A stretch of 40,448 bases of DNA from IMG/VR virus record IMGVR_UViG_3300047316_000051, positions 1 through 40,448 of that record; one strand, written 5' to 3'. A model generated the notes under the pieces. It did not search any database. It saw only the letters and a list, made by a program, of their open reading frames with translations, and had not been told where the DNA came from. This DNA comes from a virus. Below are positions 3,990-36,478 of this stretch, one piece after another (positions within the stretch are counted from its first letter, which is position 1; every line of letters begins with the position of its first letter). A program made the translations under genes and the position numbers.

Positions 3990-4161
3990 GCAAGTCGTCC
4001 TCGCCTAGTTGTGGAACCATAGCCCCGCAGTTGTCACATCGGAAGTAGGCTTTTCCGTCTTCAGCGCGAAATCGCAACATGTCTCGGTGCTGACAAAAAA
4101 GCCGCTTCCAGGCGATGCGCTGCGGCGCGGTCAGGAGCTTCTTCGGCCAGCGGCGCGTCAT
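3979..4161 (-). CDS. Small zinc-knuckle protein, 60 aa
   Basis: The start ATG at 4159-4161 overlaps the stop of the exonuclease/RecT gene (ATGA). A basic N-terminus (MTRRWPKKLLTAPQRIAWKR) is followed by CQHRDM and FRCDNCGAMVPQL, giving up to three cysteines plus a histidine as a metal-site candidate. The C-terminal CDNC...MVPQL resembles the tail of the 5573-5875 product (CDNCHEAMPIL). Function unknown; nucleic-acid binding is plausible from charge. Confidence 0.6.
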   Translation of the reverse strand: MTRRWPKKLLTAPQRIAWKRLFCQHRDMLRFRAEDGKAYFRCDNCGAMVPQLGEDDLHGK

Positions 4162-5576
4162 TCGTCACCGCCCATCTCCTCGAGGCTGTAGAGGCCGAAG
4201 GTCACGTCGGCATAGCTCAGTCGGCAGAGCTTGGAACTGCCCGTCTTGGCGATCATGTCCGGCTGCTGCTTCTCCCAGGCCGAGCCTGACGTGATGAGTC
4301 CGGCCTTCTGTGCTTCCTCGAGCGTGTAGGTCAGCGTCGTGGACGTCGGGTCGCCCTTGCGCTTCGTGACCCACGTGGCCTTCGTTAAGCTGCGCTCGGT
4401 GCAGGTGAAGTATTCACAGACCGGCGAGGCCAATACGAGCGCCCGCATGAGGTCGGCGGCCATGCAGACCTTCCCCTTCACGTTGTAAAAACCTCTGAGG
4501 CTGGCCATCATGCCCAAGTTCAACTCACGGCCGGCGAAGATGATCGCGGCGACGGCCTGCGGGTTGCCATAGCCGGCAAAGAACCGCGAGTCGAACAGCA
4601 CGCGGGCAATGGCCATCGTGTCGCGGGCGCTGCGCGGCTCGAGCGCGCGGGACCAGGCACCCGTGAACGGTTCAATATCCACGCGGGCAATCTGCGTGTC
4701 TGGCGAGGCCACAGGCGGCTTGTCAGTGCCGCTCGTCGGTTCGCTCACATCGGCTTCCTGATCCATCTGCTCCACCATCTCGGCCATGACGTCTCGCTCC
4801 TTCGGTTTCGGCGTGCGCGGCTTGAAGACTTCGGACACGTCAATCGGCGCGTCCGTCTTGAGGGTGACGAGCAGCCGGGCGCGTTCGAGCGCCAGGCCGT
4901 GCTCGGTCAATGTCTGCTTCGTGCGCGGCGTGACGTCCTCTAGGTGCGCCATGACGCTATCGAGCGACCCGAACGTCTTCAAGAGCTCGGCGGCCTTCAC
5001 CGGTCCGATGCCAGGAGCGCCCTTGATGTTGTCCGCACTGTCGCCCACGAGGGTCAGATAGTCGCGCATCTGGGCCGGCGTGATCTTGAACTTCTCGAGC
5101 ACGGCGGCTTCATCGATCAGTTGTCCGGTCTTGAGGCTCACGACCGAGATGCCGGCCGCATCGTTCACCAGTTGCAGCAGATCCTTATCGGCCGAGGCGA
5201 TACGGAGCGAGTTCTTGACCGGATGCTGCACGGTCAGACCCCACACGGCTCGCGCGATGATGTCGTCCGCTTCGTAGCCATCGGCCGCCCAGATGGGGAA
5301 CCCGTCATCGCTCAGGACGCGCTCGGTGCGGTTCAACTGCTCGAACAGCGCCGCGTCCTTCTCGGGCCGGTTCGCCTTGTAGGTCGAGTCAATCTCGCGC
5401 CGAAACGATCGGCCACGGTCGGCGCAGATGGCGACGTGCGGCGAGCCGTTCGCCAGCGCGTAGACCTTCGCCACGGCCTGATTCGACGTCCAGTTCACGT
5501 CAGGCTGGTCGCCGGACAAGTGGAATAGTGGGTGGACCAGCGACGACAGGTCGATGAGGAGAATCGGGTCGCTCAC
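4158..5576 (-). CDS. Fusion: FEN-type 5'-3' exonuclease + RecT-like annealing domain, 472 aa
   Basis: Start chosen at GTG 5574-5576, overlapping the upstream stop; a longer in-frame reading would only be out-of-frame translation of upstream genes. Residues 1-245 carry the PolA/T5-type exonuclease motifs: LLIDLSSL (Asp9), RREIDSTYKANR, GYEADDIIA (Glu102, Asp104, Asp105), SADKDLLQLV (Asp130, Asp132) and GDSADNIKGAPGIGPVKAAE (178-197, the helix-hairpin-helix clamp). After a Pro/Lys/acidic linker (about 250-312), residues 315-470 match RecT-family phage annealing proteins: ARVLFDSRFF, AIIFAGRELNLGMMASLRGF, YNVKGKVCMAADLM, TYTLEEAQKAGL, a W...Q..MI...S...LCR stretch and the final FGLYSLEEMG. Exonuclease and annealing partners of Red/RecET systems are normally separate proteins; here one chain would resect and anneal. 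Confidence 0.85.
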   Translation of the reverse strand: MSDPILLIDLSSLVHPLFHLSGDQPDVNWTSNQAVAKVYALANGSPHVAICADRGRSFRREIDSTYKANRPEKDAALFEQLNRTERVLSDDGFPIWAADGYEADDIIARAVWGLTVQHPVKNSLRIASADKDLLQLVNDAAGISVVSLKTGQLIDEAAVLEKFKITPAQMRDYLTLVGDSADNIKGAPGIGPVKAAELLKTFGSLDSVMAHLEDVTPRTKQTLTEHGLALERARLLVTLKTDAPIDVSEVFKPRTPKPKERDVMAEMVEQMDQEADVSEPTSGTDKPPVASPDTQIARVDIEPFTGAWSRALEPRSARDTMAIARVLFDSRFFAGYGNPQAVAAIIFAGRELNLGMMASLRGFYNVKGKVCMAADLMRALVLASPVCEYFTCTERSLTKATWVTKRKGDPTSTTLTYTLEEAQKAGLITSGSAWEKQQPDMIAKTGSSKLCRLSYADVTFGLYSLEEMGGDE

Positions 5577-5875
5577 TGGCCTTCCTCTAGAATAGGCATG
5601 GCCTCGTGGCAGTTGTCGCAGAGCGTCCACTGGCGCATCGGTTTTTCTGTCGCGTGGAGTCCCGTCACCGCGTAATCGGCCGCCCGGCGTGCATCCATCG
5701 CGGCGGCTTGCATCGCTCGCGTGTCGGCCATGCTCGAGGCCGCCAGTTCCGGTCCCTGGCCATACGGCAGCGTGCCGAACAGCCGATCGCGCTCGATGCT
5801 GCGCCAGCGCGTGTAGGCGCTGCCGAACTCGAGCGCGAAGGCCGCGGCCCAGACCAAGTCGGCGCGGTCGCTCAC
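5573..5875 (-). CDS. Hypothetical protein with C-terminal CDNC, 100 aa
   Basis: GTG start at 5873-5875 overlaps the preceding TGA, with GAGGAGG upstream. The helical N-terminus (LVWAAAFALEFGSAYTRWRS) is followed by an Ala/Arg-rich helix and ends with TLCDNCHEAMPILEEGQ. I recall similar small phage proteins only as unknowns. It is translationally coupled to the exonuclease/RecT gene immediately downstream, which hints at a role with it. Confidence 0.65.
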   Translation of the reverse strand: MSDRADLVWAAAFALEFGSAYTRWRSIERDRLFGTLPYGQGPELAASSMADTRAMQAAAMDARRAADYAVTGLHATEKPMRQWTLCDNCHEAMPILEEGQ

Positions 5876-6150
5876 TTGACCTCCTCGATCTGCGCGGACT
5901 GGCCGAGACGGCTGGCGGTGGACGCGGCGACGTAGGCATCGCGCTGCTCGAGGTAGGCGCGCAAGTCGGCCATCGTAATGGCGCGCTCCTGGAAATCGCC
6001 GTCCTCATAGCGCACGACGACGATCGTGGCGGTGCTGTCGATGGTGTCGCCCAAGTCAATCGTCATCGTGTCGCCCTCGGGCGCAGCGATGCGGTTCTCG
6101 AACGCGCGGCACTCGGCGCCGCAGAAACTCACCGTGACGTAGCGTTCCAT
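5872..6150 (-). CDS. Hypothetical protein, 92 aa
   Basis: ATG at 6148-6150 follows the upstream TAA directly (TAAATG). The N-terminal half is beta-rich (MERYVTVSFCGAECRAFENR, then a TIVVVRY strand); the C-terminal half is helical (AITMADLRAYLEQRDAYVAA). No motif recognised. Confidence 0.6.
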   Translation of the reverse strand: MERYVTVSFCGAECRAFENRIAAPEGDTMTIDLGDTIDSTATIVVVRYEDGDFQERAITMADLRAYLEQRDAYVAASTASRLGQSAQIEEVK

Positions 6151-27348: not shown

Positions 27349-28242
27349 ATGGCTAACCTCCCGGAAGCGGATTACGCCAATCTCGATAAGCTGAACGCGG
27401 CCATTGCGTCCGACCCGACGTTCCATTACCTAGCGCTTCACGCCAACAACGGCGACCAGCAGTCGATTCAGGCGCTCAAGGACCTGGCGGCGTCCAAGGG
27501 CTTCCCCGTGCCGGATAACGTCGCGTGGGACGCGGGGTCGTTTCAGAACACGGGCGGGTCCATTCCGACGTGGATGAAGGTGGCTGGCATCGGTTTGGCC
27601 GGTTTAGGGGTCGCTGGACTGGCCGCCCCGGCGTTCTTTGGTGTCGAAGGCGGCGCGGAAGCGGCCGGGGCTGGTGGGGCCGGGGCCACCGCAGCAGGAG
27701 CCGGGACCGGGGCCATCAACGCGACTATGGCCACAGGCGTTCCTGCAGCTCTGACGGGCGGCGGCGCGACGAGCCTCGGCACGGCGGGCGCAGTTGGAGC
27801 GGGCGGGGCCGCTGGTGCGGCTGGTGGGTCTGCCGGAGGCGCTGCAGGGGCAGGGAGTGGCTTCCTCAGCACGGTCGGAAAACTCGCGCCCATCATCAGC
27901 GGCGGGTTCGGCCTCGCTGGTGCGGCGCTCCAGGCCCATGCGACCTCAGATGCCGCCAAAGCGAACGCGCAGATTCAGCAGGAAGCGCTGGACTTCGAGA
28001 AGGCGCAACTGGCGCAGAAACAGGCGGCGCTGCAACCTTACGTCGACACCGGCAATCAGTCGCGCGGCCAACTGGCGTATCTACTTGGCATCGGGCCAAA
28101 CAACGGCCCGAATCCGATCAACACGAACACGCCGATGCCGGCGCAAGTCCAGATGCGTGACCCGAACGGACAGATTGAGTCGGTGCCCGCCAGTCAGGTG
28201 GCGCATTATCAGTCGCTCGGAGCGACCTTGGTGAACGCATGA
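27349..28242 (+). CDS. Internal virion (ejection) protein candidate, 297 aa
   Basis: The N-terminal helical part (YANLDKLNAAIASDPTFHYL) is followed by hydrophobic Gly/Ala-rich segments that could insert in membranes (VAGIGLAGLGVAGLAAPAFF; a 90-residue Ala/Gly/Thr run). A Gln/Ala coiled coil follows (QIQQEALDFEKAQLAQKQAA) and a polar tail ends it. This composition, and a place after the tail genes, match podovirus internal proteins ejected to build a channel (P22 gp7/gp20/gp16 type). Assigned by place and composition, not by a recognised domain. Confidence 0.6.
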   Translation: MANLPEADYANLDKLNAAIASDPTFHYLALHANNGDQQSIQALKDLAASKGFPVPDNVAWDAGSFQNTGGSIPTWMKVAGIGLAGLGVAGLAAPAFFGVEGGAEAAGAGGAGATAAGAGTGAINATMATGVPAALTGGGATSLGTAGAVGAGGAAGAAGGSAGGAAGAGSGFLSTVGKLAPIISGGFGLAGAALQAHATSDAAKANAQIQQEALDFEKAQLAQKQAALQPYVDTGNQSRGQLAYLLGIGPNNGPNPINTNTPMPAQVQMRDPNGQIESVPASQVAHYQSLGATLVNA

Positions 28243-33899: not shown

Positions 33900-34069
33900 T
33901 GATGCCCATTCCAGCCGCTATCTCGTTTCGCTTCCGGTCGCTCGCAGAGTTCTGGGACGCATGGGCGCACTGGCTCAACCCGCACTACCGGCAAAGCATG
34001 GACGCGGTGCCGGGACTCAAGGCCAGGTTGGATGAGTGCCGCACCTTCGTCGACGAGCTGTTGCGCTAG
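33899..34069 (+). CDS. Small hypothetical protein, 56 aa
   Basis: ATGATG start overlapping the preceding TGA. Reads MMPIPAAISFRFRSLAEFWD, AWAHWLNPHYRQSMDAVPGL, then a short helix. Its last 34 bases overlap the start of the protease gene. Not recognised. Confidence 0.5.
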   Translation: MMPIPAAISFRFRSLAEFWDAWAHWLNPHYRQSMDAVPGLKARLDECRTFVDELLR

Positions 34070-34866
34070 CCGCGATCACCTTCTGCACGATCACGCTCGC
34101 GGGCTTCACGCACGCGGCATTGTTTTCCTATGTTCTGACTGGAGGCAGACTTCCGCTCTGGTCCCTCACCAACCTTAGCCGAGCTCTCTGGTTCACGCTG
34201 GGACTGGCCGGGCCGATGGCCGCGCACGAACTTGGCCATGTGCTGGTCTATCGCCATTACGCCATGAGATACCGTGGGCCGTTCGCGCTACCGGCCCCGT
34301 TCCTGCTGACTGGCACCGTGGGCGCGTTCATTCGCTTGGAGAGTCGCTACCCGTCTAGACACGCCATGATTGTAAACGGCGCCGCTGGGCCGGTCCTGGG
34401 GCTCGTGGCGGCCCTTCCTGCGGCCATCCTCGGGATGCGGTGGTCGATTCCCGTCTCGGCCTTGGTGAACGGCACGAATTTGAAGCGCCTCGGCATGCCG
34501 TGGGTGCTGTCGTGGCTTGGGGGAGGAAAGTCTTACGTTTTGCACCCTTTGTCAGCCGGTGCCTATGTGGCGCTCGTGTTGACATGGGCCAATCTCTTAC
34601 CGGCCGCGCATTTTGACGGCGGCACAATCGTCAACGCCCTGCATCGTCCTACTGCTCGGATTGTCTCCGTGGCTATGCTTGGCGTGGCCTTCTGGATGTC
34701 GGCGTTTTCGGTGACCTGGGCCGCGATTCTTGGAGCACAGATTCTTGTGCTCATGGTCGCTGGATGGCAAGACGATCCTCAAATCCGAGAACCGCTCCGA
34801 CCGTCGGCATGGCTATGGGTCGGAGCGGCGTTGCTAGCCTTTATTCTTGGCTGGACGAGGCTTTGA
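34036..34866 (+). CDS. Site-2-protease-like M50 metalloprotease, 276 aa
   Basis: GTG start at 34036 (overlapping the previous gene); there are about six hydrophobic segments. HELGH at residues 64-68 is the zinc-binding HExxH, and NLLPAAHFDGG at 186-196 is the NxxPxxxxDG signature of site-2 proteases that supplies the third ligand. GPFALPAPFLLTGTVGAFIR and NGAAGPVLGLVAALPAAILG resemble the EGY/S2P subgroup. Such enzymes cut substrates within membranes, for example anti-sigma factors. It is the last rightward gene and converges with the leftward unit. It has no usual phage partner; it may have been acquired from a bacterium and could disturb host envelope-stress signalling (inference). Confidence 0.85.
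   Translation: MPHLRRRAVALAAITFCTITLAGFTHAALFSYVLTGGRLPLWSLTNLSRALWFTLGLAGPMAAHELGHVLVYRHYAMRYRGPFALPAPFLLTGTVGAFIRLESRYPSRHAMIVNGAAGPVLGLVAALPAAILGMRWSIPVSALVNGTNLKRLGMPWVLSWLGGGKSYVLHPLSAGAYVALVLTWANLLPAAHFDGGTIVNALHRPTARIVSVAMLGVAFWMSAFSVTWAAILGAQILVLMVAGWQDDPQIREPLRPSAWLWVGAALLAFILGWTRL
34792..34828. terminator. Strong inverted repeat at the convergent junction
   Basis: CCGCTCCGACC (34792-34802) pairs with GGTCGGAGCGG (34818-34828) around a 15-base loop: an 11-bp perfect stem inside the 3' end of the protease gene, 12 bases beyond the stop of the leftward gene at 34841. No clear U-tract follows in either direction. It may end leftward transcripts or block antisense readthrough. Confidence 0.45.
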
Positions 34867-35008
34867 GTTTCGCCCAGCGTGCGGTATTCATCGTCTGAGC
34901 GTGGGCGCGGCGTTCATCAGCAGTGCGTGATGCCCAACGAGCCTTGCCGCCCTTCTTAGCTCCGAGCTTCGACAGCGCCGATAGTTCCGCCTTGGTCGGT
35001 CGTTTCAT
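34841..35008 (-). CDS. Small basic protein, 55 aa
   Basis: ATG at 35006-35008 lies inside the 3' end of the upstream gene (53-base overlap). MKRPTKAELSALSKLGAKKG, GKARWASRTADERRAHAQTM and NTARWAKLKASSSQE give a Lys/Arg/Ala-rich helical protein of the KGGKAR/ARW type, likely DNA-binding. It is the last leftward gene and overlaps the protease stop by 26 bases. Confidence 0.55.
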   Translation of the reverse strand: MKRPTKAELSALSKLGAKKGGKARWASRTADERRAHAQTMNTARWAKLKASSSQE

Positions 35009-35480
35009 GGAAAGCCACCTGCTCGGCCTCAATACGCATCCGCTCCACCAGTTTCCGAAGCCCCAAGAACTGCCGATAGCGAGTCTCGAAGGCGTGCATG
35101 TCCTTGAGAAACTGAATACGGGCACGCTCGAACAATTCGGCGTCATCAGCGATCCGCGTCACCGCGACGTAGCTCTGCGCTTCTTCCTCGGTGGCATCGA
35201 CGTTCACGAAGCAGCGAACGAGATCCTTCTGGCCTTCGTCGTTCTCACTCACTATGCGAATGGAGCGGATGACCATCCGCGCTTGGTTTTCACGATACCG
35301 CTCGGCCGCGAGATCATCGTTCCACTCGAAGCAACGATGAAGGGGATTGCTTTCATCGCGTGCCGTCTGCACGACCATCTTGGTTTCCAGACGGCCGTTA
35401 TTCTCTGCCTGCAACCGTTCTAATTCTTCGCCGCAGGCTTGGGCATTGCCCCGGAGCCGTGCGGCCCATCGATAGACCAT
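34956..35480 (-). CDS. Conserved phage protein of unknown function, 174 aa
   Basis: Start ATG 35478-35480 after AGGAGG at 6 nt. MVYRWAARLRGNAQACGEEL, SNPLHRCFEWNDDLAAERYR, ENQARMVIRSIRIVSENDEG, then long helices (FLKDMHAFETRYRQFLGLRK). I associate the pattern 'SPLHR.FEWDD..AA...R..QAR.LIRSI' with a widespread family of uncharacterised phage proteins. The gene lies directly downstream, in the direction of transcription, of the 5-nt-period array and of the 35804-36385 gene, so the three probably form one unit. Confidence 0.75.
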   Translation of the reverse strand: MVYRWAARLRGNAQACGEELERLQAENNGRLETKMVVQTARDESNPLHRCFEWNDDLAAERYRENQARMVIRSIRIVSENDEGQKDLVRCFVNVDATEEEAQSYVAVTRIADDAELFERARIQFLKDMHAFETRYRQFLGLRKLVERMRIEAEQVAFHETTDQGGTIGAVEARS

Positions 35481-35524
35481 GTGAATCCTCCTGAAAGAAA
35501 AACACCAAACCACGCCGTAATCCG

Positions 35525-35787
35525 CCCCACCTCGCCAAGCCTGGACTCACCAAACCGGGCCAAGCCTGCCGCGCCAGACCACAATGCGCCTTGCCTCGTC
35601 CCGACTCGCCACGCCTGCCATGCCTAACCAGACCGCCACCGACCGAAACCCACCGAGCCCGTCCACGCCTAGCCTGCCTCACCAGACCCGACCGTAACTT
35701 GACCCAACGCGCCAGACCTTGCCTGCCACGCCATTCCCCGCAGAGACTCACCCCGACTGGACCCGCCTTGCCTGCCTAACCGTTTCC
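35525..35787 (-). repeat. Non-coding array with a CC (plus) / GG (minus) step about every 5 nt
   Basis: Between the stop at 35804 and the start at 35480 is a 323-base gap without a credible gene. Within it, CC dinucleotides on the plus strand start at 35530, 35535, 35540, 35550, 35555, 35560, 35565, then 35569, 35574, 35579, later 35653, 35658, 35663, 35668, 35673, 35677, 35682, 35687, 35692, and on to 35780. As transcribed leftward this is NNNGG repeated about fifty times with variable N and rare slips of one base. It is not a CRISPR: no long repeat or spacers. The strong C (plus) / G (minus) skew is unlike the neighbouring genes. Confidence 0.8.
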
Positions 35788-35803
35788 ACGTCCGATACCC
35801 GCC

Positions 35804-36385
35804 TCAGCCAACGTGAAAACGGCCGTAACTGCCATCGCGTTCCGGTCGCCATTCGCCCACACCGACGCCGAAACCGGCCAAATTGAACAGATTGCAAATC
35901 TGCTCCGGCGAGAACGCACTCGCGTTGTATGAAATCGTGAGCACCGTCGCCCACGGATCGAACTGACCACGGTAGCGAATGTCCGCCGTGCCCATCGCGA
36001 TCTTCACCATGTCTTCACGCATCGTTGGTTCACCTTCGATCTTGGCGAGTTCACCGACGACATGGAACGCGCCACGCGCCTCGGTCATCTTGATGCCGTC
36101 TGAGAATCGGCACGCGCCGACCGCCGCCGCCTTGAAGCCGACGCAAGGGAACCCGTAACCGCCATCTGGATGTTTGTAGAGCGACTCCTCGTAATCCTTC
36201 TGGGGATCTTTCGCTTCTTTGGCCGTCTTGGCCTTCTTCATCTGCTTGTCGAGCATCTGTTTCTTGGCCTTTTCCGACCAGGCATGACAGATGAGCGGCG
36301 AATCGCCAATCAGGCGAATCTCTAAGGTGCGAACATCGATTTTGGGGACTTGAACGAGCAGGGGCGAACTTGTAGAATCAGCCAC
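35804..36385 (-). CDS. Conserved phage protein, weakly Cas7/RAMP-like, 193 aa
   Basis: Start taken at GTG 36383-36385, 8 bases after GAGAGG; GTG at 36392-36394 is the alternative. It begins with a beta strand and LIGDSPLICHAWSEKAKKQM, LDKQMKKAKTAKEAKDPQKD, then GGYGFPCVGFKAAAVGACRF and KMTEARGAFHVVGELAKIEG. It ends GVGVGEWRPERDGSYGRFHV. Similar proteins are frequent in phages, with unknown function. The early 'SPL' strand plus the final Gly-rich loop (GxGxGEWRPxxDGSYGRF) recall the fold markers of Cas7/RAMP RNA-binding subunits; this is my inference, not an identification. The 5-nt-period array lies immediately downstream. Confidence 0.7.
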   Translation of the reverse strand: MADSTSSPLLVQVPKIDVRTLEIRLIGDSPLICHAWSEKAKKQMLDKQMKKAKTAKEAKDPQKDYEESLYKHPDGGYGFPCVGFKAAAVGACRFSDGIKMTEARGAFHVVGELAKIEGEPTMREDMVKIAMGTADIRYRGQFDPWATVLTISYNASAFSPEQICNLFNLAGFGVGVGEWRPERDGSYGRFHVG

Positions 36386-36405: not shown

Positions 36406-36437
36406 CGGGCCGCCCTGTTTCCAGCAGGAGCGGCCCG
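36406..36437 (-). promoter_or_regulatory. Leader hairpin before the 36385 gene
   Basis: CGGGCCGC-CCTG (36406-36417) pairs with CAGG-A-GCGGCCCG (36425-36437), one bulged A, 7-base loop. It begins about 6 bases after the predicted start of the leftward promoter at 36450-36478 and ends about 20 bases before the GTG, so it would form in the 5' leader of the message. No U-tract, so it is more likely a stability or control element than a terminator, though it could also end the upstream transcript. Confidence 0.5.
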
Positions 36438-36449
36438 ATGTGTTTAGAG

Positions 36450-36478
36450 AATGTATCCTAGCTAGGGCTAGGAGTCAA
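36450..36478 (-). promoter_or_regulatory. Leftward promoter with palindromic spacer
   Basis: On the minus strand TTGACT (36478-36473), 17 bases, TACATT (36455-36450). The spacer is itself a palindrome, CCTAGC-nnnn-GCTAGG (36457-36472), a probable operator. It fills the gap between the stop at 36479 and the next start, and would drive the 36385 gene, the array and the genes after it. Confidence 0.55.

Follow-up and report, generated by a model that had tools for sequence, protein, structure and literature searches.

The window analysed here is a stretch of viral DNA of 40,448 nt (positions 1 to 40,448 of IMG/VR record IMGVR_UViG_3300047316_000051). Between two conserved phage genes it contains a tract in which GG recurs every 5 nt, which raises the question of what such a tract encodes and what sets its register. 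The sequence-only reading that drew attention to it knew of no described function. However, the combination of a GGY/NN array and a RAMP protein became known in 2026 under the name VIPR (Viral Interference Programmable Repeat; preprint of April 2026, PMC13142463), and the locus is a further case of this very recently described system. With high confidence, we regard it as the VIPR system of a P22-like phage, in which the minus strand carries vipr, a multi-guide vrRNA array and a candidate accessory gene (Table 1).

According to the preprint, Vipr is a RAMP protein of roughly 20 kD, and a vrRNA comprises 9–16 YNNGG repeats in which NN is hypervariable. These pairs recognise double-stranded DNA, one base, usually the wobble base, being skipped per unit, and phages deploy VIPR against rival phages, prophages and satellites. 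For the systems of SUSP1 and P. fulva, the preprint demonstrates RNA binding, the 1-nt-skip code and silencing (PMC13142463). VIPR represents a new way of recognising DNA with an RNA guide and has been proposed as a forerunner of CRISPR; this one preprint is its only description to date.

Table 1 Features of the VIPR locus in the window
Feature	Position	Strand	Remarks
vipr (RAMP/Cas7-like, ~193 aa)	35804..36385	-	GTG start 36385, alternative GTG 36394; phrog_4652, E=1.6e-33
vrRNA array	35502..35803	-	~51 GGYNN units, tail-less, GGCA punctuation; like array adjoins vipr in relatives
First segment	35777..35803	-	degenerate, two 6-nt units, possibly decayed
Guide segment 1	35728..35772	-	AA GG CA GG GA TC GG AT GT
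Guide segment 2	35679..35723	-	AA CT GC GG AA AC CG CT GA
Guide segment 3	35620..35674	-	TA GT CG TC GG TC CG GC CT TA AT
Guide segment 4	35571..35615	-	GT GA GG GA AA GC GT CT GC
Guide segment 5, without closing GGCA	35502..35566	-	TT CC TT GA CA TT GA GG GG AC GT TT GT; direct sequence reading
GGCA punctuation, five copies	35773-35776, 35724-35727, 35675-35678, 35616-35619, 35567-35570	-	
vipr partner, candidate Vap (174 aa)	34956..35480	-	phrog_15946, E=3.6e-15; ATG 35480, AGGAGG 35492-35487
Strong G + C hairpin, vipr leader	36406..36437	-	CGGGCCGC...GCGGCCCG; from the sequence
Candidate VIPR operon promoter, sigma70-like	36450..36478	-	TTGACT-17-TACATT; consensus match

Register and extent of the array

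The 5-nt periodicity of GG is real. On the minus strand of 35500–35812, GG pairs at lag 5 numbered 29, which exceeds all of 2000 dinucleotide shuffles (14.2 ± 3.3, maximum 26), and the autocorrelation was also higher at lags 10, 15, 20 and 25. Elsewhere in the window, no second 260-bp stretch with a comparable register was found; the runner-up, near 27601 on the plus strand, scored 16 and is located within a Gly/Ala-rich open frame.

The array unit, read on the minus strand, is G-[G/T]-[C/T]-N-N. Among 38 parsed in-register units, position 1 is G in 36, position 2 is G or T in 37 and position 3 is C or T in 35, while positions 4 and 5 are nearly free (0.18 and 0.01 bits); a further 13 units form the last segment of the array. 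Therefore GGYNN, tolerating G[G/T][C/T]NN, is a better notation than the NNNGG proposed earlier, which captured the fixed GG phase but not the pyrimidine. The earlier limits of 35525–35787 also lie within the array but are slightly too narrow: it begins directly 3′ of the upstream stop codon and extends to about 35502. It is intergenic and does not overlap the downstream gene, since the latter begins with the ATG at 35480.

As the sequence-only reading had stated, the tract is non-coding, strand-specific and G-rich, and reading frames scanned through it gave no family match. It also lies in the predicted direction of transcription of its neighbours, as vipr, array and partner gene are all on the minus strand. 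An Rfam scan of the region yielded zero matches, and a search of the literature on pentanucleotide repeats returned nothing relevant to the array. A CRISPR array had been rejected from the start, and rightly so: GGY phase and GGCA recur, identical repeats do not, and no cas genes were detected among the neighbouring and larger ORFs scanned in the window.

With GG every 5 nt, weak two-tetrad quadruplexes are conceivable, and the tract lies between genes with its G-rich strand as the transcribed one. It might be a plain G-rich RNA or DNA, such as a two-layer quadruplex, an R-loop, a recombination tract or a translational spacer, with no guide function. Folding of the array RNA, however, was no better than that of shuffles (z = -1.0). 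A plain G-rich tract also leaves unexplained why a pyrimidine is conserved at position 3, why GGCA marks recur at distances of 5n+4, why the array is linked to a RAMP protein and why the NN pairs resemble codon positions 1–2 (all below). We consider this explanation extremely improbable, and the quadruplex and R-loop ideas raised earlier are not needed.

The protein encoded upstream of the array

The product of 35804–36385 belongs to a family listed in PHROGs with unknown function. Profile searches and structure prediction identify it as a Vipr, a single-RRM RAMP homologous to that of SUSP1. A profile built from 51 relatives matched PDB entry 36pp ('SUSP1 Vipr protein') over nearly the whole length with E=1.3e-13; with a single sequence, this match was weak (E=0.002). 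In the reverse direction, the family HMM searched against the SUSP1 genome retrieved vipr (E=1.6e-16), which adjoins runs of GGTNN there, each followed by a tail. The AlphaFold2 model has a pLDDT of 92.6, and the best 50 PDB matches in Foldseek were all of the CRISPR Cas7 type (Csm, Cmr, type III-D, type VII and Cas7-11), with a best E value of 3.3e-6 and moderate TM-scores of about 0.4–0.55. A glycine-rich loop is found near the C terminus (AGFGVGVGEWRPERDGSYGRF), with G174, G178, R183 and G191 invariant in 51 sequences.

This identity bears on the register. The sequence-only reading had suggested a protein or RNA filament with a 5-nt footprint, naming the 35804–36385 product first, and the register probably is the footprint of an RNA-coating protein of this kind. 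According to the mechanism published in the preprint, subunits of Vipr handle GGY and leave NN to read the target, which explains a step of 5 nt. The other candidate named earlier, a RecT domain, fared less well. Some annealing proteins have a footprint close to 5 nt, and the phage encodes a RecT-like domain at 4158–6059, so that a filament array for such a recombinase is conceivable; but this gene, the only one found with such a domain, is located 30 kb away, and in other loci the array is linked to the RAMP gene. A RecT filament is thus highly improbable as the source of the register, and coating by Vipr is the preferred reading.

A scan of genomes with Vipr yielded only two loci, both distant and both in metagenome-assembled genomes. 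One is from Candidatus Tariuqbacter arcticus (L168, 6001–6636, 50% identity) and one from an uncultured Faecalibacterium (L169, 6001–6663, 40% identity); both are probably proviral.

Linkage of array and Vipr in other phages

Array and protein were searched for separately in IMG/VR. With the Vipr of the window, 38 viral loci were found, and a GGYNN array could be parsed near vipr in 31 of these. The AT-rich phage L037 carries a GTTNN-rich array in exactly the corresponding gap between vipr and its partner, which brings the count to 32/38. The array is mostly placed behind the partner gene, in some loci between both genes and in others in front of them. Conversely, a scan for (GGYNN)x8 alone gave at least 120 loci, and Vipr was detected by HMM in 84 of the 120 listed, though many loci are truncated. 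Where both were present, 179 of 191 arrays among the matches listed lie on the vipr strand and within 1.5 kb. This mutual co-occurrence indicates that array and Vipr form one unit, and it bears out the expectation that the array would be found beside homologous genes in other phages.

Named phages with the unit are the Saal/Quico-group mycobacteriophages, the Gordonia phages ODay and UmaThurman and Cyanophage Cy-LDV1. Multi-guide arrays are common in phages of unrelated hosts, as the locus and its relatives reveal, beside genes annotated only as hypothetical.

Some of these loci show individual features. L009 carries one more GGYNN array behind the partner gene, from about position 2900 onwards, so that arrays flank the accessory gene on both sides. 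In several records of Mycobacterium phages (L043 and L170–L182), genes for a 'hypothetical protein' upstream of vipr overlap the GGYNN array; such calls, for example LastJedi gene 43 and Donkeykong gene 48, are probably spurious predictions within non-coding guide arrays. Pseudomonas phage LESphi2 (L044, 2580–2960) has three short GGYNN blocks with tail-like repeated stretches between them, upstream of a distant Vipr relative, and its array is of the tailed type, unlike that of the window.

GGCA punctuation and guide segments

Single-base slips of the register had been noted earlier and are indeed present, but most are not random. Five of them consist of one 4-nt unit, GGCA, ahead of GGC, with spacings of 49, 49, 59 and 49 nt. 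The segments after successive marks hold 9, 9, 11, 9 and 13 NN pairs, which is within the 9–16 repeats given for VIPR.

The same spacing is a rule common to the arrays of many phages. In the arrays of the fetched loci, 266 of 342 distances below 130 nt from one GGCAGGY to the next equal 5n+4, the commonest being 54, 49, 59, 44 and 64 nt. Alignment of 405 distinct GGCA marks revealed that the adjoining NN pairs on both sides are purine-first (A or G in 76–81%), while pairs farther away are nearly free; the boundary motif at these sites is GGY-RH-GGC-A-GGC-RW-GGY. Guides of closely related mycobacteriophages differ in their NN letters and in entire 5-nt units that were inserted or lost.

From these patterns we infer that GGCA delimits guides of about 8–14 units, in which case the window array would contain five readable guides after one degenerate leader segment. 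Such punctuation would be a simple means of splitting arrays into guides. It is possible, though doubtful, that polycistronic vrRNA arrays of this kind, lacking tails, punctuated by GGCA and partnered by phrog_15946, form a distinct and unreported VIPR architecture, the boundary motif acting as a processing or end signal that yields guides of 8–14 units from one long GGYNN transcript.

Composition of the NN pairs

If the VIPR code holds, the skipped target base falls on the wobble base, and NN pairs are therefore expected to resemble codon positions 1–2. A mixture model at the level of guides was applied to 296 guides, some of them from related loci, with coding sequence of the same contigs as reference and frames taken from long ORFs. 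Sense codon positions 1–2 received a weight of 0.40, the other five phase and strand models at most 0.04 each and the uniform model 0.54. The gain over uniform was 73.5 nats, compared to 6.6 nats with swapped letters, 4.7 nats with junction pairs and at most 41.8 nats in 20 trials with second letters shuffled within guides. The last value indicates that position-specific base composition accounts for roughly half of the signal, the remainder being due to pairing of the two letters.

For codon positions 1–2, the posteriors of window guides 1, 2 and 4 are 0.73–0.90 and that of guide 3 is 0.17; guide 5 was excluded from the test by its parsed length. At the level of the family, the signature supports the reading of NN with a 1-nt skip at the wobble base. 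The wobble-skip rule thus gains support from sequence alone, for which known targets are not needed. This signature and the GGCA guide punctuation are additions of the present analysis.

Based on these observations and the published code, the following mode of action can be proposed. Transcription of the array would give a G-rich RNA, which GGCA would divide into guides of about 9–13 units. Each guide would become covered by Vipr, a Cas7-like RAMP, with every GGY bound by the protein and every NN left exposed. The complex would then read double-stranded DNA as NN-x-NN-x..., skipping one target base per unit, usually the wobble base of a codon, and would prevent genes of rival phages, prophages or satellites from being transcribed. 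Expression of the copy in the window, GGCA as the guide ends and the nature of the targets are thus predicted features.

Search for targets

Exact skip-1 patterns (NN-x-NN) of guides 1–5 matched 0, 0, 0, 2 and 1 times in IMG/VR, which is about chance by a rough estimate. The 18-base matches of guides 4 and 5 (L165, L166 and L167) were judged to be chance, because their number is near expectation and the guide 5 match fails at the neighbouring NN pairs; the match in L165 reads NPFDQFDGG in frame, which is suggestive but insufficient. A search of 85,000 prokaryote genomes gave no match for guide 3, and three of the guides were unmatched at up to three mismatches in 48 related virus records. When skip lengths were compared for all guides against 1.45 Mb of fetched loci, a skip of 1 was without clear excess, at chance level. 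Two single matches, of a guide of L021 in L022 and, with one mismatch, of a guide of L038 in the vipr gene of L011, were not significant once trials were counted. Guides shared between the window array and other arrays did not exceed shuffles. The targets of this metagenomic phage are probably unsampled.

The searches with window guides that returned no matching target could also fit a VIPR locus in decay, with an intact protein gene and an array that no longer yields working guides. Only 24 of the 38 units carry an exact GGY, most arrays being less degenerate, and the first segment contains two 6-nt units. Against decay, the 5-nt register persists throughout segments bounded by GGCA marks, neither the vipr frame nor the spacing of GGCA is disrupted, and departures stay mostly within G[G/T][C/T] (32/38), a form also used by the AT-rich relative L037. 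Decay is very improbable, and a VIPR locus with a presumably working array remains the preferred assignment.

Comparison with described systems

The locus resembles the VIPR systems of Escherichia phage SUSP1 and of a Pseudomonas fulva prophage, as given in the preprint, in its RAMP protein of about 200 aa, its compact phage-encoded organisation, its candidate accessory gene and its non-coding GGY/NN pentamer array beside the gene, with guides of 9–16 units. In SUSP1 the vrRNAs are separate, each with a conserved tail, whereas the guides of the window follow head to tail with only GGCA between them. No repeated 3′ tail is visible in the window array. Because the preprint assigns the invariant structured 3′ tail after each vrRNA to the SUSP1-type clade and describes other array architectures (PMC13142463), the window locus is not of the SUSP1 type but still fits VIPR as a whole. 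The 'staggered arrays' of that text may correspond to the architecture observed here.

Cheoctovirus mycobacteriophages, ODay, UmaThurman and Cy-LDV1 share with the window a Vipr homologue, GGCAGG marks and a GGYNN array encoded on the vipr strand; their VIPR-like genes are annotated in the records only as hypothetical proteins. The mycobacteriophage array is located upstream of vipr and ends in a conserved hairpin-like stretch, whereas that of the window lies between vipr and the partner gene. Class 1 CRISPR-Cas systems (Cas7/Csm3) have the RAMP fold in common with VIPR, and in both the protein is thought to polymerise on the guide RNA, with pairing skipped at regular intervals. VIPR differs in the absence of CRISPR repeats, spacers and cas genes and in its non-contiguous NN code with a 5-nt period, compared to a contiguous spacer and a 6-nt period in CRISPR.

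Partner gene, promoter region and further genes

The product of the downstream gene belongs to phrog_15946, which PHROGs also lists with unknown function. Members of this family adjoin vipr in about 43 non-redundant loci and share an invariant core of H59/F62/W64/A69/A78. The model of the window protein is confident (pLDDT 87) and of mixed helix-strand type; no PDB match had an E value below 0.1, and no Pfam family was found. The family had no detectable match among the SUSP1 proteins, so that the accessory candidate of the window differs from that system in this respect. It is nevertheless the obvious candidate for an accessory protein of this VIPR type.

Upstream of vipr, the spacer of the promoter-like site contains the palindrome-like CTAGCCCTAGCTAG, and the strong G + C hairpin comes after this site. 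The region 36406–36478 on the minus strand is possibly a regulated start of the VIPR operon.

Two other genes of the phage are unusual. On the minus strand, 4158–6059 encodes a protein of 633 aa with a 5′-3′ exonuclease (PF02739, PF01367) and a C-terminal RecT-like annealing domain, an uncommon fusion of exonuclease and annealase in one chain. A predicted membrane metalloprotease of the M50 family (34036–34866, plus strand; PF02163, E=4e-13) is convergent with the VIPR operon and represents unusual cargo for a podovirus.
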